A stretch of DNA of 20,724 nt. It comes from a virus. Where the stretch lies: positions 1 to 20,724 of IMG/VR virus record IMGVR_UViG_3300032116_001571, one strand, 5' to 3'. Positions 273-17,308 of this stretch are shown here, in pieces (positions within the stretch are counted from its first letter, which is position 1; each line of letters begins with the position of its first letter). The notes below the pieces were generated by a model. The model was not told where the DNA came from. It did no database searches and was given only the letters and a program-made list of their open reading frames with translations. Both the position numbers and the translations under genes were made by a program.

Positions 273-2945
273 TTAAACGTTTCTTGATAAACTTGTTTGA
301 TAAGTTTGTATTATTGTGTATAGATTTGATATTTCAGTATTATTTAATCCATTACCGATCGTGACGAATGAATATGTATTTGCATAGTTTTGTATTGCAG
401 TTCCACCATTATTCATGGCCCCAATGTAAACTGGGATATTGATATTTTGTGCACTTGAACTCGTTCCACTTGTCCTCAATGATCCATTTCTATACAAATT
501 ACTCATTGTATTTGCTGTTGATGAAATCAAATATTGACCTTGTGGAAGTGGTGCATTTGCTGTAGATCCACCAGTATTGGAAATACCATAAAATTCTTTT
601 GGTGTTCCATCTTGAGCAATAACAAAATATCTACCACCAGATGATGCTCCAATATAATTTTTTCCAGTTCCAGTCAAAACAGTATTATCTAACATGTAAA
701 TTGAAGCGTGTTGATCATTCAATGTATTATTACTTGGATTAAATGAAGTATTGGCATAAGTATTTGATGCACCATTAGATGTTGCACCAGACGCATTATA
801 AGTCCATCCTGTGCCTTGGAATGATAAATGATATGAACTACTACTAGGATTTTTTGCATCAATTCTTGTTGATCCAGATGTGCCACCAACAAATGGATAC
901 ATTACATCAATCTTAGTATAAAGATTATTACTTTTCAATGAAGTAAATAATGTAAATGTTGCGGCGCTTATTGTTGCACTCATACCTGTTGCTCCACTTG
1001 CAACCAAAGCATTAAGATATGCTTCAGCATCGGCATCATAACCAACTGTTGCTGTTGGTGTAGGAGTAGGAGATCCTGTGTTTGTATTTGTCGGTGTTAT
1101 AGTTTGGGTAGGTGTTGGACTCTTAGTTGGAGTCATTGAATTCGTTGGTGTTTGTGTATTAGTTGCAGTTTGAGAAGGTGTTTGTGTATTAGTTGGAGTT
1201 TGTGTTTGACTTGCTGTATTTGTTGGGGTATTAGTCATTGTTGGTGTATTGGTTGGAGTTAATGATGGAGTAGGTGTAGGTGTTGGGCAAGTATTACAAT
1301 CTGTAATAGATAAAATATAACCAGTTGATCCATTTATTTGCATAACAAATGGACCAGAAATATTATAATAATGATAAGGAGTAGACCCAGCATTATATGG
1401 AGTTGTTAAACTAGAATCTGAATAAATTATACTTCCAACATCTGGGAATGTATCTCCTGTTGCTGGTAAATAAACTGTTTGTGGACTTGGCATTCCATAT
1501 TGACATGCATTGCACGCATTAGTAAAGCCTGCACTTTCTAAATTAAATGAAAAATATGCTCTCGTTGGAGTAGGCGTTGGTGTTTTTGTTTGTGTAGGTG
1601 TTGGTGTATTTGACGCAGTATTACTTGGTGTTGCTGTTTGTGTAGGTGTAGGAGTTTTAGTGGAAGTAATTGAAGGAGTATTTGTTGGAGTTTGTGTTTG
1701 TGTTGGAGTTTGTGTGGCAGTATTACTTGGCGTTGGTGTATTAGATGGAGTGAGTGTAGGTGTAGGGGTAATACAATATAATAATTCAATTGAATAACTC
1801 CAACCACCAAATGTAGTTTGACCTGTTCCTATTTGTGGGTAAACTAAGTCTCCACTTGTATAACCTGTTGCAATGTAATCTATATTTACAGAATTTTGGA
1901 ATGTTCCACAGTTAGGAAGTGGATTAGAATTTGACAACACAAAATATTCCAATTTATTAGGATCAGAAATATTATACCATATTCTTCCAAGTCCAGCATC
2001 TTGGATCCAGAATGACCAATTATTTCCATTGAGTGGTCCACAATCCATTTGTAGATTTCCTTTTCTATAAATTCCTGTTCTAGTTGTTCCACTTTGTAAT
2101 GTATAATTTCCTGTAAATCCTGATATTCCACCAGTTCCTGAGAAATACAATTTCTCACATTCAGGATCAAAAGTTGTTTGTGTTGGCGTTTGTGTTATTG
2201 TTGGTGTTTGTGTGTTAGTATTAGTTGGCGTTTGTGTATTAGTTGATGTTATTGTAGGAGTAGGTGATTGTGTATATGTAGGAGTATTTGTTGGAGTTTG
2301 TGTTTGTGTTGGAGTTTGCGTTGGTGTAGATGTCCTTGTTGCAGTTATACTTGGGGTCGGTGCAAATGGTGTTAATGTTGCTGTAGGAGTCATTGTTGGT
2401 GTTGGTGTAATGAATGGACATAATGGATAATTTGGATTTACTGATGAAATAACCCAATCATTATATGTTGTAGATACACAACCTGTTTCTGTATAAACAA
2501 AATTTAACCTTGGATAAATAAATTCTGTAAATGTGTCTCCTGAATACAATATAACATTTTGTGTTTGTGTTCCATTTGTCATTGTAAAAGTTAGATCAGG
2601 ATGCCCTGTAAATCCACCAGAAGTTGAGTCAATACTAAATAACCATTTTCCATAAGTGTCAAAATAAGTAAGTCCATCATTTGGACATTGAAATGGAGCA
2701 TTGAAATAAGTTTGACCTGTAAAAATACAATACGTTGGATTTGTTGGACTTGGTGTTGGTGTAATTGCAAGGCATGACCCAGATAATTCTAGACCATTTA
2801 AATTGAGTAATGGTTTTGAATCATCCATACATATACTTTGACCATAAGTGAGAGTATAATAGCCAACAGTTCCATCACAAGTTGTGCCTGAAATATTTTT
2901 ACTGCCACCGTATGTATCATTATGTATGTATGTATTGCAACTCAT
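273..2945 (-). CDS. modular tail-fibre/adhesin-like protein with Thr/Pro linkers
   Basis: An 890-aa protein built from four modules separated by Thr/Pro/Ser/Gln/Asn-rich linkers. Module 1 covers about 1-176, module 2 about 259-391, module 3 about 462-552, and a C-terminal domain covers 635-890. The linkers are at about 177-258, 392-461 and 553-634. Each of the first three modules is Cys-, Tyr- and Gly-rich. The C-terminal domain has the look of a concanavalin/LamG-like jelly roll found in phage fibres ('YPFVGGTSGSTRIDAKNP', then 'NDQHASIYMLDNT' and a late 'YIGAMNNGG'). No signal peptide is visible. It lies between the large baseplate-type protein (18-nt gap) and the tape measure region, which suggests a receptor- or glycan-binding virion protein. 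The domain assignment is by pattern only. Confidence 0.6.
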   Translation of the reverse strand: MSCNTYIHNDTYGGSKNISGTTCDGTVGYYTLTYGQSICMDDSKPLLNLNGLELSGSCLAITPTPSPTNPTYCIFTGQTYFNAPFQCPNDGLTYFDTYGKWLFSIDSTSGGFTGHPDLTFTMTNGTQTQNVILYSGDTFTEFIYPRLNFVYTETGCVSTTYNDWVISSVNPNYPLCPFITPTPTMTPTATLTPFAPTPSITATRTSTPTQTPTQTQTPTNTPTYTQSPTPTITSTNTQTPTNTNTQTPTITQTPTQTTFDPECEKLYFSGTGGISGFTGNYTLQSGTTRTGIYRKGNLQMDCGPLNGNNWSFWIQDAGLGRIWYNISDPNKLEYFVLSNSNPLPNCGTFQNSVNIDYIATGYTSGDLVYPQIGTGQTTFGGWSYSIELLYCITPTPTLTPSNTPTPSNTATQTPTQTQTPTNTPSITSTKTPTPTQTATPSNTASNTPTPTQTKTPTPTPTRAYFSFNLESAGFTNACNACQYGMPSPQTVYLPATGDTFPDVGSIIYSDSSLTTPYNAGSTPYHYYNISGPFVMQINGSTGYILSITDCNTCPTPTPTPSLTPTNTPTMTNTPTNTASQTQTPTNTQTPSQTATNTQTPTNSMTPTKSPTPTQTITPTNTNTGSPTPTPTATVGYDADAEAYLNALVASGATGMSATISAATFTLFTSLKSNNLYTKIDVMYPFVGGTSGSTRIDAKNPSSSSYHLSFQGTGWTYNASGATSNGASNTYANTSFNPSNNTLNDQHASIYMLDNTVLTGTGKNYIGASSGGRYFVIAQDGTPKEFYGISNTGGSTANAPLPQGQYLISSTANTMSNLYRNGSLRTSGTSSSAQNINIPVYIGAMNNGGTAIQNYANTYSFVTIGNGLNNTEISNLYTIIQTYQTSLSRNV
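1044..1289 (-). repeat. Thr/Pro linker repeat, third in the 890-aa gene
   Basis: About 82 codons of degenerate short repeats, visible on the plus strand as GTTGGTGT, GTTTGTGT and GTAGGTGT units. They encode PT, NT, QT and ST dipeptides and join module 3 to the C-terminal LamG-like domain. The repeat is coding and in frame throughout. Confidence 0.85.
1563..1772 (-). repeat. Thr/Pro linker repeat, second in the 890-aa gene
   Basis: About 70 codons of the same degenerate Thr/Pro-encoding repeat, joining modules 2 and 3. The opposite strand of this stretch is also open and reads as a Val/Gly/Cys repeat, which is a by-product of the repeat composition. Confidence 0.85.
2172..2417 (-). repeat. 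Thr/Pro linker repeat, first in the 890-aa gene
   Basis: About 82 codons of Thr/Pro/Gln/Asn-rich repeat joining modules 1 and 2. Nearly identical sub-blocks (for example QTPTQTQTPTNTP) recur in the linker at 1563-1772, so recombination between linkers could swap or delete modules. Confidence 0.85.
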
Positions 2946-2964: not shown

Positions 2965-5900
2965 TTAACATGCATTTTGCCCATCAACTGTTATGTAAAC
3001 AAATTCAGCACCTGAACTCAATACGGTATGATTGTAATTACAACCAAAACCTCCAGGTCCACTAGGACATACTGTTGTAGATCCTGCAATTGCTTGTGTA
3101 TTTGAATCTGTAAATTCAACTGTGTCTCCAATTTGTAGACCATTTATTGTATAAAAATACAAACATGAACTTGTTGTAATTGGTCCAATATTTGCAGGGG
3201 TTCCCATATTTACAGAATAAGTTAAATCACCTGTTGATTGATTATTGATATACTTTGCATAAATATAAAGATCAGTCCCACTTGCACTTGGTGATGGAGT
3301 TGGTGTATTACTTGCAGTAATTGAAACTGTTGGTGTAGGAGTAGGTGTTGTTCCAATTGTAGGAGTTGGTGTAGGTGATTCTTGATTTGTAGGTGTAGGT
3401 GTAGGAGTTATACAATTTGTTGAACAAAGATTATCATACGTCACGGTACCTGGCCCTGTCATCGTTCCATATCTAACTCCGCCACCACCACAATTTACAT
3501 TGAATGTTTCACCAGGAATAACAAAATAATCGAGTGTTATTCCATCACAATCTTGCCATATTACAAGACCATATCCTGTTGCTTGGAATGTTGTTTCATA
3601 ACATTCAATACAAGGAGTTGTTGAAGGAGTAATTGATACAGTTGGAGTATTAGATGGTGTTATTGAAACTGTAGGTGTCATTGTTGGAGTTGGTGTAGGC
3701 GGCACATAATTACAATCAGTGCAATCAGTATAGCCAGAAATTTCAATCCAATCCGTTATTGAACTATATGTTTGACCAACAGCGTAGACACACTCAGTCA
3801 ATGTTGTTGCACTATTTTGTATTTTATATGACGCACTACCACCACTCAATACATAAGATGTTGAAACAAAATTATATGTTGTGGCTGAATCAACACAACT
3901 AAGACCTGAGAAAAAGAAAAATCTAGAATCACCAGGTTCTTCTTGAATTATATTAAAACCTGTTCTACCCGTGCAACCACAATCAGGGTATAATCCAACT
4001 AATTGTTGTGTATATCCTGAAGATAAATAATAGTGATTATATGTTCTAGTTGAATCATATTGACCAATTTGAACATTATAACAACCTAAATAATTTAGGT
4101 CATCTGTAAATAATTTAACATAGTTTCCTGCATAAGCATAAAGATTATACATTAAATCACTATTGGAATATAATGTGGATCCTGAAGCACAAGGTATTAA
4201 ATCATAATATAAAACCGGGTGTGATTGATATTCTCTGGTCAGTTTCACTAATTCAATATCACATATACTTGGTTCAAGGGCATTGAAGTTTGATATTTTA
4301 TTGATTCTAAAATATGTGTTATTGATAATAATTCTTTCATTCCATCTCAACTTTTGTATGTCTTGTGGATATAAATAAATCTTGGCTGAATAAATTTTAT
4401 TTTCTTCTGAAATTATATCTTGAACATAATCTTCATAATAAACATTATACAAATCATCTGCAATAAATGAAAATTCAGATGGTGTAATATTTGTTCTATC
4501 TTCACCTCTAAAATTTGTATAATGACTAAATCCTGTATATGAGAATGGATATGTTGTAAATCTATTTATATTACTCCAACGGTCTTGTTGGTATTCATCC
4601 ATATACCAATATTGATATGATGCCCCTTCATAAACTGTTCCACAAGTAGTTCCAGAATTTGTAATTGTAATGCTTAGTGGCGGAAGATAAGGGACTGCTT
4701 GTCTCAAACTTGATGGATCTGCACAACCAGGAATTGAATTTGACCCAGGATATAAATAAAGGTCTTGTTGGACACCAAAACAATCTGTATAACTTACACC
4801 ATAAGGAGGATAAGATAATGATGTAGATAGATTAAATGTAATTCCAGATGTGCAACTAGATGAACCAGTTGTTTGACCAGTTCCACCAATAAGACCATAG
4901 TTATCATTTGGAATTGTTGGACCTCTAAAAATAACTTTAGGTAAAATTTTGAATGGAACAAAAGTTTGTTGTGTTTGGCCAGACTTATCTATAGTTTTTA
5001 CTTTTGACATTGATTCAAGAGTAATCAATGGGACATAGGCGTTTTGAACTGTAATTTCTATTGGACTTGAGAATAAATAAGTAAATTTTGTTGTTTCATC
5101 TTTATATTCTAATCCTAATTGGAATCGATCTGTCCCAAATATTCTATTTGTTTGTGTTTTAAAATCTTGATTGGCATAATCTTGATCTAATCTAAATTCA
5201 TATTCAAGTGTTCCATTAACAAGTTCTGTAGTTGGATAAAGATTTTGTGTTGCAGAAAAATCTATCTTTGTTGTCCAATCTAATGTATCTCCTTTACCAA
5301 TATAATCTACTATTGGTTCAACTATTAGTTTATCAGGATCATCTGGGTTTGGAACAACAACTAAATTGAAATACTTATTTATGCTTGTCAAAAAATCAAT
5401 TTGCTTATAATCATTATCTGGAAATTCAATATCATAATTCACTGTTGATCCAGTTGGAATATATCTCTGTGAACTTATAATTTGGAAATTAAAATTACTA
5501 ATTGTTGCATATTCACCTTGGAAATAAAATTGAATATTTGATGTTCCAGTAAAATTAAATGTTTGATCAAAACTAACTTGTGTTGTAATTGGCTCTGTGC
5601 AAAAATAATTTGAGTATATTACTGTTTGTTGTGTGCCATCATCAAAAGTCAAATAAACAAGTGGTATAATGAAACTGAATTGATCACATGGTTGTGTTCT
5701 ATTTACATCGAAAGTAAATCTGAATGTATATGTTCCAGAAAATTCTTCTGGTAAAACTAAGGTTGTTGTATTTGCAGATAATCCCAATGTATTACAAGTA
5801 AGACCTGATGATGGATTTGTATATGTTGGAGTATAAATACTAAGTGTTGGTGTTGGATCTATATTTGTATATGTATAACACGGAATAATTGCATTTCTTG

Positions 5901-6720
5901 AAAATATACTTTCATCAACAAATTTCAAAGGCATATAAAACCTTTTGAAATATGCTGTGTCCATGAATTCACTTTGTAATTGATAACCTGCTTCTCTGAA
6001 AATAGATTCATATAACTCTCTAATTTGTAATGCAGGTTTGAAATAATAATTGTGTACTGGTGTTCCTGAATAATCAAAAAATGGCGTCACGGGGGCATAA
6101 ACCGTAGAACCTGTTGTATATTCAACTGGTGTGAATTGTATTAAAGGTGTTTCGTCAAAATTAAGTGTTGTTCCACTCACATACTCATACCCAATATTAA
6201 ATAACCCCCAAAAAGTTTTTCCATTTTGATATGAATAATTTGTATTTCCTGTTAATGGAAATAAATTTGGATCTAAGTTTGAATAATTGATTACATTATC
6301 ATCATATGGATGACTCAAATAAGATAAATCTAAATCAAACAAATATTTGTCTCCAATATTTGCCATTAAATCTCCAACTTGATTATAGAAGGTGCACTGA
6401 TAAATTATTTCACCATTGGCAACCGTCACGCCGTTGAGTCTAATATATCCTTGTAAAATGAGATAACCATCCCATAATAATTGTGCTTCAAATTTATTAT
6501 TAGGGTTAAATGTTGTTGGAATGGAATTTAGATCAAAAAAGAAATTGAATATCTCATTATTTTGCTTGGATCCAGGGACTGAAAATGCCTTGGAATAAGA
6601 TGAATTTTTTTTGGTTATATCTTGTAATTCTGCAAATGATAGAGATAGAAGTATTGGTTCATTTTGATATAAATCAATGAATTTACTTTCACCTTGTATG
6701 ATTGTTCTTATTTGGAGCAT
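2965..6720 (-). CDS. large tail/baseplate-associated virion protein
   Basis: A 1251-aa protein. The first 130 or so residues carry a signature I associate with a tail/baseplate family of Bacteroidota phages: a polar 'FIDLYQNEPILLSLSFAELQ' segment, then 'SKAFSVPGSKQNNEIFNFFF', then a 'LLWDGYLILQGYIRLNGV' strand-rich stretch. The body to about residue 1000 is long, Tyr/Thr/Gly-rich and probably beta-structured. The C-terminus holds two Thr/Pro linkers (about 1006-1036 and 1104-1149) separating two small Cys-rich modules (about 1037-1103 and 1150-1251), like those in the 890-aa protein next door. It is 1 nt from the 547-aa gene upstream. Probable role: a structural component at the tail tip or baseplate, with the C-terminal modules displayed outward. 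The role is inferred from family resemblance and context. The enzymatic domains common in tail-tip proteins are not evident. Confidence 0.6.
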   Translation of the reverse strand: MLQIRTIIQGESKFIDLYQNEPILLSLSFAELQDITKKNSSYSKAFSVPGSKQNNEIFNFFFDLNSIPTTFNPNNKFEAQLLWDGYLILQGYIRLNGVTVANGEIIYQCTFYNQVGDLMANIGDKYLFDLDLSYLSHPYDDNVINYSNLDPNLFPLTGNTNYSYQNGKTFWGLFNIGYEYVSGTTLNFDETPLIQFTPVEYTTGSTVYAPVTPFFDYSGTPVHNYYFKPALQIRELYESIFREAGYQLQSEFMDTAYFKRFYMPLKFVDESIFSRNAIIPCYTYTNIDPTPTLSIYTPTYTNPSSGLTCNTLGLSANTTTLVLPEEFSGTYTFRFTFDVNRTQPCDQFSFIIPLVYLTFDDGTQQTVIYSNYFCTEPITTQVSFDQTFNFTGTSNIQFYFQGEYATISNFNFQIISSQRYIPTGSTVNYDIEFPDNDYKQIDFLTSINKYFNLVVVPNPDDPDKLIVEPIVDYIGKGDTLDWTTKIDFSATQNLYPTTELVNGTLEYEFRLDQDYANQDFKTQTNRIFGTDRFQLGLEYKDETTKFTYLFSSPIEITVQNAYVPLITLESMSKVKTIDKSGQTQQTFVPFKILPKVIFRGPTIPNDNYGLIGGTGQTTGSSSCTSGITFNLSTSLSYPPYGVSYTDCFGVQQDLYLYPGSNSIPGCADPSSLRQAVPYLPPLSITITNSGTTCGTVYEGASYQYWYMDEYQQDRWSNINRFTTYPFSYTGFSHYTNFRGEDRTNITPSEFSFIADDLYNVYYEDYVQDIISEENKIYSAKIYLYPQDIQKLRWNERIIINNTYFRINKISNFNALEPSICDIELVKLTREYQSHPVLYYDLIPCASGSTLYSNSDLMYNLYAYAGNYVKLFTDDLNYLGCYNVQIGQYDSTRTYNHYYLSSGYTQQLVGLYPDCGCTGRTGFNIIQEEPGDSRFFFFSGLSCVDSATTYNFVSTSYVLSGGSASYKIQNSATTLTECVYAVGQTYSSITDWIEISGYTDCTDCNYVPPTPTPTMTPTVSITPSNTPTVSITPSTTPCIECYETTFQATGYGLVIWQDCDGITLDYFVIPGETFNVNCGGGGVRYGTMTGPGTVTYDNLCSTNCITPTPTPTNQESPTPTPTIGTTPTPTPTVSITASNTPTPSPSASGTDLYIYAKYINNQSTGDLTYSVNMGTPANIGPITTSSCLYFYTINGLQIGDTVEFTDSNTQAIAGSTTVCPSGPGGFGCNYNHTVLSSGAEFVYITVDGQNAC
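3274..3411 (-). repeat. Thr/Pro linker near the C-terminus of the 1251-aa protein
   Basis: About 46 codons of Thr/Pro-rich repeat (residues about 1104-1149) between two small modules. It uses the same degenerate units as the linkers in the 890-aa and 558-aa genes. Confidence 0.8.
3613..3705 (-). repeat. Thr/Pro linker in the 1251-aa protein
   Basis: About 31 codons (residues about 1006-1036). A VSITPS(N/T)TP unit appears twice in tandem here, and a VSITASNTP variant recurs in the linker at 3274-3411. Confidence 0.8.
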
Positions 6721-10348: not shown

Positions 10349-12025
10349 TTAAGTTATTATAATTTTGTCGTTATTTTCTTGTAAGATATAATCCAAGTTT
10401 TCTTGTAATAAATAACTTGGACAGTTATCCCATGTAATATATTCTTGATTCCATTGATCAGCATTCTCATTCCAAATACATTCGTTTATTACTACAACTG
10501 GTGTTGAAGAAGGTGTTGGAGTAAATGTTGGTGTTATTGATGGGGTTGGTGTTGGTGTAGAAGTTTCTGTATTTGTTGGAGTAATAGACGGAGTAGGTGT
10601 AGGTGTATTTGTTTCTGTATTTGTTGGAGTTTGAGTTTGTGTTGATGTTATTGATGGAGTATTTGTTATTGTTTGTGTAGGTGTAAATGAAGGGGTAGGT
10701 GTAGGTGTATTTGTTTCTGTATTTGTTGGCGTGTTTGTTGGAGTAGAAGTAGTGGTTGGTGTATTTGTATTGGTTGCAGTCGGTGTATGAGTTGGTGTAT
10801 TAGAAGGAGTTGATGTTTGAGTATTTGTAGGTGTTTGAGTTGGGGTTGGTGTATTTGTAGATGTATTCGTTGGGGTCTGAGTTGTTGTAGGAGTATTAGT
10901 ATTAGTTGGTGTTTGAGTAAGTGTTGGAGTCAGTGATGGTGTTGGTGTGAGTGTTTCAAATGGATAAAACGCAGCATCACAGCGGTCAAGTGGTGTCATA
11001 ACTTGGATCTGGATATTTGCACTCCAACCGCCAAGTAAATCATGATATTTTTCAATGAATGGAACACAAACAACAGGTTGATCCAAATAATACTCTTTAT
11101 TAAAATTACCAAGTGAATCTTCAACACTAAGTCTAAATTGACCTATAATATCATCCATTATTTGTAATGTATCACTCAATACATCTACTTGATTATTTAA
11201 ATCTCTTTCAATAATATCAGACACAATCAAATCAAAATTATAAGTCATGTGTGTTGATTGTTGTTCAACATTTCCTGGTATGACATATAAATAAGGATAA
11301 ACTACGGCATTATCACTAGGATTATCTTGTTTTAGTCTTTGATCCACATTATAACTAAATTCACCAAGATCACCATAACCAAATGAATTTAATTGTTTGT
11401 GATAATTGGCTAATAACTGAAAATCATCAACAATTGTTTTGTGATTTATTCCAGCCAAATGAAATACAGGAGATCCAGTAAATGTATTATATGCGGCAGC
11501 ACAACGATCTAATGGTGAAATTGTCTCAACTTTTAATTCAGCATTCCAACCATTTGTCATGTCTGCATACTTCTCAATAAATGGTATACAATTGATTGTT
11601 TCAGTTATAAAATATTTTCTATAATAATCTCCTTGAGATTGTTCAACAGAATATTTGAATTGACTAATTACATCTTGTAATATTTGCAATGTATCAGAAA
11701 CTGTATCAACAAGATTTGTATTATCTCTGAATACAATATCCATTACAAGAGTGTTGAAATTCCACTCTTTATATCTTAAATTATTTACAACTTTTGATGG
11801 AACAACAAATAACAAAGGATACAATGGTGATTGATCATGTGTATTTTCTTGTGCTTGTCTTTGTTGTTGAAGATATGTGATATACTCCAAATTACCAAGA
11901 CCAAATGAATTTAATTGCTTGTGTTTCTGTGTTAGATAATAGAAATCATCAGCAAATGATCTGAGATTTACTGTATCTGGAAGTGGAGAAACAGTTGGTG
12001 TTGGCGTTGGAGTTGGCGTTGGCAT
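10349..12025 (-). CDS. tail-terminator-like protein, duplicated domain with long Thr/Pro linker
   Basis: A 558-aa protein. After an odd start made of PTPTPTPTPT (residues 2-11) come two tandem copies of one domain, about 21-182 and 196-356. Each copy has '(D/V)DF..L...HKQLNSFG.G(N/D)L' near its start, then 'YP.L.V(V/I)P', '(V/L)SDTLQI..D(V/I)I.QF', 'C(I/V)PFIEKY.D' and 'PLDRC.AA' at its end. A Thr/Pro linker (357-509) and a 49-residue Trp/Asn/Gln-rich tail follow. The short alpha/beta domain with a 'YP.L.V.P' strand and an 'SDTLQI' helix resembles tail terminator or tail-completion proteins. That is a family-level inference; the duplication is seen directly. The ATG shares one base with the stop of the overlapping -1 frame upstream (TAATG). 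Confidence 0.5.
   Translation of the reverse strand: MPTPTPTPTPTVSPLPDTVNLRSFADDFYYLTQKHKQLNSFGLGNLEYITYLQQQRQAQENTHDQSPLYPLLFVVPSKVVNNLRYKEWNFNTLVMDIVFRDNTNLVDTVSDTLQILQDVISQFKYSVEQSQGDYYRKYFITETINCIPFIEKYADMTNGWNAELKVETISPLDRCAAAYNTFTGSPVFHLAGINHKTIVDDFQLLANYHKQLNSFGYGDLGEFSYNVDQRLKQDNPSDNAVVYPYLYVIPGNVEQQSTHMTYNFDLIVSDIIERDLNNQVDVLSDTLQIMDDIIGQFRLSVEDSLGNFNKEYYLDQPVVCVPFIEKYHDLLGGWSANIQIQVMTPLDRCDAAFYPFETLTPTPSLTPTLTQTPTNTNTPTTTQTPTNTSTNTPTPTQTPTNTQTSTPSNTPTHTPTATNTNTPTTTSTPTNTPTNTETNTPTPTPSFTPTQTITNTPSITSTQTQTPTNTETNTPTPTPSITPTNTETSTPTPTPSITPTFTPTPSSTPVVVINECIWNENADQWNQEYITWDNCPSYLLQENLDYILQENNDKIIIT
10499..10957 (-). repeat. long Thr/Pro linker repeat in the 558-aa gene
   Basis: About 153 codons of degenerate Thr/Pro/Ser/Asn/Gln repeat, the longest such tract in the window. 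Larger units also repeat: a block containing NTETNTPTPTPS occurs twice, and a close variant NTETSTPTPTPS follows. This indicates tandem expansion at the DNA level. Confidence 0.85.
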
Positions 12026-15889: not shown

Positions 15890-16291
15890 ATGGATAAGAA
15901 AATATGTAAAGCCTGCAACATTGAAAAGCCAATTAAACAATTTTACAAGAATAATGTATTCAAAGATGGATATGACAGTAGATGTAAAATTTGCAAAAGT
16001 CAGAATAAAAAAATTTATAAAGGAGATGGTGATTGGAAAAAAGTTAAACCATATCAACAAAAATGGGAAGATCAATTCAATATAAAAGCCGCACATAAAG
16101 AAGACTTTTTATTGATGTATGAATTCATAACCAAAATTGGGTATGATGTAAATCAAGACGTTCATCAACAGTTTTGTGATAAACACAATTTGAAATATAA
16201 AAAAAGAGTAAAAAAGATTTATAACTTATTTCTTCCAGATGGATCAAGAAATCCGAATGTTTATGAAAATAAAAAAAATAAAAATATTTAA
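15890..16291 (+). CDS. small zinc-finger protein (HNH-associated type finger)
   Basis: A 133-aa basic protein starting MDKKICKACNIEKPIKQFYK. A TTG 9 codons upstream is a poorer start. Four cysteines (6, 9, 32 and 35) form CxxC...CxxC, with 'EKPIKQFYKN...KDGYDSRCKICK' between and around them. This is the zinc-ribbon pattern usually attached to phage HNH endonucleases and recombination regulators. The remaining 95 residues have no clear HNH motif, only a Lys-rich tail. It is the only plus-strand gene between two minus-strand groups, with 41 nt to the divergent sigma-like gene, and it ends before a strong terminator. It may be a DNA-binding regulator or a reduced homing-endonuclease relic. Confidence 0.65.
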   Translation: MDKKICKACNIEKPIKQFYKNNVFKDGYDSRCKICKSQNKKIYKGDGDWKKVKPYQQKWEDQFNIKAAHKEDFLLMYEFITKIGYDVNQDVHQQFCDKHNLKYKKRVKKIYNLFLPDGSRNPNVYENKKNKNI

Positions 16292-16391
16292 TTGGGTATA
16301 AAAATTTTTATATTTAACTAAGACAACTACGGAACTCTATTTATCCATTGTTTTACCTAAATTCAAAAAATGCTCCTTCGTGGTTTGTCAA
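16292..16391. other. intergenic stretch with AT palindrome
   Basis: No gene seen here. A perfect 16-bp palindrome TATAAAAATTTTTATA lies at 16297-16312, just after the zinc-finger gene. CTCCTT at 16373-16378 is complementary to AAGGAG at 16393-16398, inside the ascending arm of the terminator. An alternative hairpin competing with the terminator is therefore possible, though weaker. Confidence 0.4.
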
Positions 16392-16424
16392 AAAGGAGGA
16401 CTTAATGTCCTCCTTTCTTTTTTT
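16392..16424. terminator. strong bidirectional intrinsic terminator
   Basis: A perfect 10-bp stem AAAGGAGGAC (16392-16401) and GTCCTCCTTT (16407-16416) with loop TTAAT. A T-rich tail (CTTTTTTT) follows on the plus strand, and five T on the minus strand. It separates the convergent zinc-finger gene (plus) from the 89-aa gene (minus), whose stop is 6 nt away. Confidence 0.88.
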
Positions 16425-16692
16425 ATTCTTGTGTCAATATTGTTTTTTCAATCTCATTCATTACTTCAATTTCATCATTAGTTGGAAGACCATATGTATC
16501 AATATAGTGTTTGATAAAATTGTAAGTATAATCTTCTTCATTTACCATTTTTGTTCCAGTGATATATGTCATTAAAAATGGCATATTACTTATTTTCTCC
16601 CATTGTTTATTTGACATTGTATATCCATCTTCCAAAAGTCTTTCCATTACAATTTGTTTGATAGAATCATTTTTTTGAGTTAAATTTTCCAT
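16423..16692 (-). CDS. hypothetical protein (89 aa)
   Basis: Starts MENLTQKNDSIKQIVMERLL. Predicted mostly helical, slightly acidic and soluble, with a conserved-looking middle 'MTYITGTKMVNEEDYTYNFI'. I do not recognise a family. It is 14 nt downstream of the 73-aa gene and ends at the terminator, so the two genes should form a short minus-strand transcript separate from the late block. Such short two-gene units near an early region often encode host-takeover factors, but nothing here shows this directly. Confidence 0.7.
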   Translation of the reverse strand: MENLTQKNDSIKQIVMERLLEDGYTMSNKQWEKISNMPFLMTYITGTKMVNEEDYTYNFIKHYIDTYGLPTNDEIEVMNEIEKTILTQE

Positions 16693-16706: not shown

Positions 16707-16928
16707 CTATTTTTTAATTTCAGGTGATTCTTGATAAACCCTTTCACTTCTAATGGTGTTCTGGGTATCACCATATATCTCATCAAGTTGATCATTATCT
16801 AAAAGATCAAATTCTTCTGATGAAATATATTTTTTTAATAAATATTGTTTGTAGTCTTCATCAAGATCAATTGAGTCATCTATTGGATCTTGTTCTTTTG
16901 AAAAGTAATAATGTTTTAATTTGCCCAT
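16707..16928 (-). CDS. hypothetical acidic protein (73 aa)
   Basis: Starts MGKLKHYYFSKEQDPIDDSI. I chose this ATG because the upstream in-frame TTG (16946) lies within the putative -7 promoter box at 16944-16951. After a basic N-terminus the protein is strongly acidic ('DDSIDLDEDYKQYLLKKYIS', 'EEFDLLDNDQLDEIYGD'). It has no recognisable domain. It is the first gene of a two-gene minus-strand unit with its own promoter. Strong negative charge is common in phage inhibitors of host proteins, which is only a hint. Confidence 0.65.
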   Translation of the reverse strand: MGKLKHYYFSKEQDPIDDSIDLDEDYKQYLLKKYISSEEFDLLDNDQLDEIYGDTQNTIRSERVYQESPEIKK

Positions 16929-16951: not shown

Positions 16952-17010
16952 GAATAAAAGAATTATTAGAAGTAATTAAGAGAATTTAATTTTTTATCTC
17001 TTGAAAAGGT

Positions 17011-17240
17011 TTGAGTAAGTGAGTGCCTTACCAGAATTTTATATCTGGTTGACACTCAGATCCTGAAATAGGAAGAGGTTTTATCATCAGTGAAAGATAA
17101 AACTAGAAGACAACTTTTTGATATTCACTTATCAACCGTATTATACCTTTCTTCTTTGTGCTGGTATTGATCTTATCATACGGGCCCTGGTAAATCTTAA
17201 TTACATTCCAACGCCACGTAGATAACCCCGCCATTGGAAC
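17011..17240. ncRNA. putative structured RNA with kissing-loop hairpins
   Basis: No gene is seen between 16952 and 17349, but several perfect stems are. (1) TGAGTG (17020-17025) pairs with CACTCA (17053-17058), enclosing ACCAGA (17030-17035) and TCTGGT (17044-17049). (2) TCCT/AGGA at 17061-17073. (3) GTTTTATC (17078-17085) pairs with GATAAAAC (17096-17103). (4) TTGATA (17118-17123) pairs with TATCAA (17130-17135). (5) TTCCAA (17206-17211) pairs with TTGGAA (17234-17239). The 6-nt loop of hairpin 4 (TTCACT) is the exact complement of AGTGAA (17089-17094) in the loop of hairpin 3, which would allow a kissing interaction. GC is about 37% overall and 45% in 17161-17240, above the surroundings. 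The strand is not determined, and no known RNA family is recognised. Confidence 0.5.
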
Positions 17241-17308
17241 TATACAAATAAATATAATGATTCATAAAAAAGTAAAACACAAAAAAAATTTTTCTCAACC
17301 CATTTTAC

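Follow-up and report, generated by a model that had tools for sequence, protein, structure and literature searches.

GOLLD and ROOL are found in phages or prophages. Together with OLE, they are described as ornate, large structured noncoding RNAs of bacteria that use loop-loop contacts (PMC12286853). Small phage-encoded RNAs can also be directed against the host, as are the Racr RNA anti-CRISPRs, which are solitary mimics of CRISPR repeats (PMC10651486). Other anti-defence loci carry a linked homing endonuclease, SegB, that promotes change at the locus (PMC13096335), and comparative surveys published in 2010 (PMC2864571) and 2021 (PMC8040213) have described candidate structured RNAs.

The RNA reported here, which we term type A, resembles each of these in part. 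Like GOLLD, ROOL and OLE, it is a structured noncoding RNA with loop-loop contacts; it differs from them in its length (~230 nt), in its occurrence in Bacteroidota and in trading places with other RNAs at a fixed slot, and their Rfam models matched nothing in the window or the homologues searched. In the role that we propose, it would be, like Racr, a small RNA that a phage encodes and directs against its host. Its three tertiary contacts set it apart from Racr, a distinction made at the level of the fold, and the complexity of the modelled fold makes a CRISPR-repeat mimic of the Racr kind unlikely. The slot is comparable to the SegB loci as an accessory locus beside an endonuclease gene, but what changes hands here is an RNA gene that follows a shared promoter, and the endonuclease is only a presumed participant. 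As with the candidates of the 2010 and 2021 surveys, type A is a covarying RNA of unknown function that emerged from comparative genomics; it is distinguished from them at the level of Rfam families, and not of motif lists outside Rfam.

The window is a 20,724-nt stretch of viral DNA from IMG/VR. Divergent gene sets flank the region of interest (17011-17240), which is located 5' of the right-hand operon. A sequence-only reading had proposed that this region encodes a structured phage RNA of a new kind, with hairpin loops complementary to one another, possibly a leader of the right-hand operon that switches between two folds. The motifs behind that proposal are all in place: TTCACT at 17124, AGTGAA at 17089, ACCAG at 17030, TTACCAG at 17028, CTGGTAA at 17187, the three copies of CTGGT (17045, 17161 and 17187), and GTTTTATC at 17078 with GATAAAAC at 17096. 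The region is indeed richer in GC than its surroundings (37.4%, against 31.1% for the window) and free of genes, with no open reading frame of at least 50 aa between 17005 and 17250. Folding energies were only modestly better than those of shuffled controls on both the plus strand (z -1.88; 5 of 200 shuffles as good) and the minus strand (z -2.43; 3 of 200). Folding energy alone would not have sufficed, and we accept a structured RNA because covariation, described below, decides the matter. Large proteins with long TPTPT-rich threonine/proline repeats are encoded elsewhere in the window (273-2945, 2965-6720 and 10349-12025).

The view that the RNA belongs to no known family also stood. Rfam 15 returned 0 matches in the window at gathering thresholds, a lax search of the region returned one chance match (E 2.4), and across 37 homologue or slot loci Rfam identified only two tRNAs, both elsewhere in the sequences. 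A literature search yielded no description of type A, candidate RNAs published outside Rfam lying beyond this comparison. On comparative sequence evidence, then, the region encodes a structured RNA on the minus strand that has no Rfam relative. Its features, and those of the flanking sequence, are as follows.

17248-17256, minus strand: -7-like promoter box TATATTTAT of the Bacteroidota type TAnnTTTG, upstream of the RNA.
16995-17243, minus strand: type A RNA, ~230-250 nt, 5' end near 17243, left bound approximate; supported by covariance model and covariation, with the strand from G.U pairs and a promoter box upstream.
17206-17239, minus strand: hairpin P6 (17234-17239 with 17206-17211) and its loop L6; almost all pairs show compensatory changes across 16 sequences.
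17187-17217, minus strand: pseudoknot PK3, pairing J56 (17187-17190) with L6 (17214-17217); covariation in 16 sequences.
17136-17183, minus strand: hairpin P5, comprising P5a (17178-17183 with 17136-17141) and P5b (17163-17167 with 17143-17147); covariation.
17106-17154, minus strand: pseudoknot PK2, pairing L5 (17150-17154) with a junction (17106-17110); covariation.
17119-17134, minus strand: hairpin P4 with loop AGUGAA; paired in 100% of cells.
17078-17103, minus strand: hairpin P3, whose 10-nt loop includes UUCACU; all 7 pairs covary.
17061-17073, minus strand: small hairpin P2, traced by eye in homologues only.
17021-17057, minus strand: hairpin P1 (GAGTG/CACTC with inner ACCAG/CTGGT on the plus strand), traced by eye in homologues only.
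16707-16928, minus strand: first gene downstream on the RNA strand, 73 aa from its ATG, of no family.
15890-16291, plus strand: zinc-finger, endonuclease VII-like gene with PHROG matches to endonuclease VII, HNH and Lar-like proteins (HMM and scan).

Near-identical copies of the region were uninformative, and divergent homologues were needed. These were collected by nhmmer searches with terminase and neighbour-gene loci and by scanning IMG/VR and 84,980 genomes for loop-based patterns, and were confirmed with covariance models. Type A is present in ~40 sequence records from phages and bacteria of the Bacteroidota, comprising IMG/VR phages, several of which have related terminase genes, and seven Bacteroidota genomes or MAGs. 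Bacterial copies are rare (1/395, 4/299, 1/64 and 1/197 of the genomes sampled; the filters may have removed weak matches, and the 4/299 include one partial match, L264), and several adjoin integrases, serine recombinases or restriction-modification genes. Three of them (L252, L255 and L262) share an integrative element with a tyrosine integrase, a short tyrosine recombinase and a NikA-like small protein, to which L252 and L262 add a ParB/DNA-methylase gene. BLASTN against isolated phages and plasmids detected no homologue, and no isolate in the collections searched carries type A. The loop motif CACGTAGATAACCCC was rejected as a family marker, its matches beyond the nearest relatives of the window resembling chance.

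The shared fold spans ~230 nt and comprises five core helices (P6, P5a, P5b, P4 and P3), two outer hairpins, a loop-loop kiss and two pseudoknots. Among 26 distinct sequences, 96.8% of 817 cells were paired and 28 of 32 pairs had changed on both sides; double changes occupied 243 cells, compared with 66.4 in shuffled alignments and 27-43 when partners were slid. The stems are thus kept by compensatory change well beyond both controls, and covariation support for the fold is overwhelming. PK2, which joins loop L5 (17148-17162, holding the near-invariant AGCACAAAG) to the junction, was paired in 99.2% of cells with all five pairs covarying, in an alignment fitted to a model that included P3, P4 and P5 and neither PK2 nor the kiss; RNAalifold also found it unprompted on a MAFFT alignment. 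PK3 was scored on 16 sequences in which it and P6 were delimited by hand: three of its four positions were paired in 16/16 sequences and the fourth in 14/16, with several pair types, and the window and L089 each keep only three of the four pairs. An additional helix between AAGUUG and the 3' tail CAACU was inconsistent by eye and was dropped.

The complementary hairpin loops are real. The kiss between P3 and P4 (17089-17093 with 17125-17129) was paired in 98.4% of cells, with three of five pairs covarying, and its sequence changes in a compensatory fashion. It was almost invariant (AGUGA/UCACU) in the first set of homologues, while L265 has AGUGG/CCACU, L263 has CUUAAA/UUUAAG, and copies retrieved with a pattern that ignored both loops have AAUGC/GCAUU, AAGGA/UCCUU and AAGGG/CCCUU; four of the five pairs are retained in L281, L282 and L285. 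The proposed switch fared differently. The 7-bp pairing of TTACCAG with CTGGTAA exists in the window, and L089 and others lack it, with no ACCAG at the corresponding site in L089. The pairing that is conserved for J56 (CCAG on the RNA) is with the P6 loop, in the pseudoknot, and not with the TTACCAG stretch at 17028. We therefore rejected two mutually exclusive folds, the alternative pairing being specific to the window and not conserved.

Two observations place the RNA on the minus strand. The second pair of P4 reads A.C on the plus strand in most homologues and G.U on the minus strand, and over the 32 core pairs G.U cells numbered 26 on the minus strand, against 7 for the mirror image (A.C); the p-value of 0.0007 for this asymmetry is not literal, since the cells come from related sequences. 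Plus-strand models were dropped after this test. In 25 of 26 copies, the TATATTTAT box is found on the minus strand at a distance of 54-69 nt upstream of the core, and it occupies a fixed slot in 23 of 26, compared with 6% in shuffles. A TTTGAC element (-33) stands 17-19 nt upstream of the box, clear in many relatives and weak in the window, and we take the pair to resemble the Bacteroides promoter TTTG/TAnnTTTG, of which the TAnnTTTG consensus appears in published papers. L263 reads TATATTTGT, a full match.

A covariance model search of other terminase relatives recovered none with type A; they have other sequences behind the same promoter, which led us to the slot's other RNAs. Among phages, the slot is linked to the zinc-finger endonuclease VII-like gene, which lies within ~1.5 kb of type A in nearly all copies with enough flank, the RNA being either downstream and co-directional or divergent. 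Scanning for this gene gave 80 loci, with 24 type A, 17 type E, 8 type B, 5 type D, 2 type C and 24 unassigned; 32 of the 80 thus contain one of four unrelated structured RNAs, and no locus contains two types. Type E (~105 nt) has a covarying 8-bp pseudoknot, three helices with 24 double-change cells (6.5 in shuffles) and an intrinsic terminator at its end. Types B, C and D are represented by few sequences and show weaker covariation. None of types B-E is in Rfam. The candidate structured RNAs were assigned to these loci.

Type B: L316, L373-L375, L349, L314 and L012/L370.
Type C: L041, L015, L014, L064, L338 and L358.
Type D: L340, L343, L348, L354 and L379.
Type E: L321, L332, L310 and others.

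Close relatives exchange the RNA as a unit behind the shared promoter for unrelated structured RNAs. Over 2,379 bp that cover the gene and promoter, L319 and L320 share 99.75% identity, then part at the promoter end into A and E, respectively; L351 and L354 break in the same way after the promoter, into E and D. L377 and L370 have homologous flanks on both sides, and only 260 versus 393 nt differ (A versus B). In each pair, closely matching sequences differ in the cassette from a shared boundary onward. Nor does type A follow the tree of the neighbouring protein: on a quick zinc-finger tree with many open forks it needs 16 changes, against a random mean of 15, while all RNA labels taken together are somewhat clustered (29 changes, 35.9 when shuffled).

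The sequence downstream of type A varies. In the phage group of the window, a gene begins ~95-145 nt past the core in most copies and no terminator is visible, which makes read-through likely and a role in cis possible; the L278-L298 group has other small genes there. At L289:4865-4939, and in L298, L282, L288, L296 and L291-L293, a hydrophobic microprotein of 20-27 aa with a basic RKRR-like end is encoded directly after the RNA; its likeness to small membrane toxins or holin-like peptides is confined to size and composition. Tracts of ACTAG/TACTAGA repeats, with up to 10 CTAG per 400 nt (~1 expected), occur ~60-300 nt 3' of the core in phages and bacterial elements alike (L254, L255, L262, L252, L050, L131 and L265). 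The divergent copy at L263:8121-8991 lies just upstream of an apparent type I restriction hsdM gene; a terminator-like hairpin replaces its P2, and a 13-bp competing pairing, GCTTTTTTCTGAG/CTCAGAAAAAAGC, gives what looks like a terminator/antiterminator arrangement. In the window, a strong inverted repeat, AAAGGAGGACTTAATGTCCTCCTTT, stands between A and T runs at 16390-16425 and is likely a bidirectional terminator.

We considered several explanations for these features. A cis-acting, folded 5' UTR of the left (minus) operon, regulating the small gene that comes next and the packaging genes behind it, would account for the spacing and read-through in the window's group and for an operon that holds a weakly sigma-like gene and terminase. 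We regard it as unlikely: a riboswitch or cis leader should keep a constant position 5' of a constant gene and a conserved alternative fold, whereas the downstream genes differ by group and no such fold is conserved. In addition, bacterial L253 and L255 lack a nearby downstream gene on the same strand, type A has terminators after it in L089 and L265, and the slot can hold other RNAs that finish in a terminator, as type E does, all of which favours a stand-alone RNA. The sequence-only reading had placed a leader on the other side, and the region does lie 5' of the right-hand operon; G.U asymmetry and the promoter box put the RNA on the wrong strand for this, the alternative pairing is not conserved, and a leader or riboswitch of that operon is barely credible.

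Proximity to the zinc-finger gene in either orientation would suit an RNA partner of its product, for example in an RNA-guided or RNA-regulated nuclease. We consider such a ribonucleoprotein improbable, as the RNA types are dispersed across the tree of the protein, L319 and L320 combine identical proteins with different RNAs, and no zinc-finger gene was seen near the bacterial copies. Very improbable, too, is a DNA-level origin, packaging site or recombination site that merely resembles an RNA. Such an element would sit well in an intergenic position beside packaging genes, followed in some homologues by a CTAG-rich tract, but DNA hairpins would not favour G.U over A.C (26:7), the kiss and pseudoknots covary, and orientation relative to genes varies.

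The reading that we favour, as probable on the sequence comparisons, is that type A is a stand-alone, trans-acting, exchangeable structured RNA of phages and mobile elements, most likely directed at the host. Host RNA polymerase would transcribe it during infection, the transcript would fold into a compact object and act in trans on a host component, and the linked endonuclease may drive exchange of the cassette. Rapid swapping, scatter among unrelated mobile elements and linkage to an endonuclease fit an accessory, host-directed role, and replacement by unrelated RNAs at fixed boundaries is expected from diversifying, host-imposed selection. Counter-defence specifically is our leading guess, and a tentative one, for which the support from swapping and from nearby restriction-modification genes is circumstantial; host takeover or superinfection control could fit equally. 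We searched for a target site or protein partner and found none. It is plausible, short of probable, that Bacteroidota phages maintain a dedicated locus with a constant promoter, at which at least five unrelated RNA classes are shuffled by recombination in the manner of anti-CRISPR protein genes, as an RNA-based, exchangeable counter-defence locus, and that type A has also moved into bacterial integrative elements.

These analyses add a class of structured RNA with three tertiary contacts supported by covariation and no Rfam relative. They also expose a phage locus at which whole noncoding RNA genes, and not proteins, are swapped downstream of a single promoter. Should these RNAs target the host, counter-defence or takeover by means of RNA could be tested directly in Bacteroidota phages, for which natural swap pairs such as L319 and L320 provide ready comparisons.
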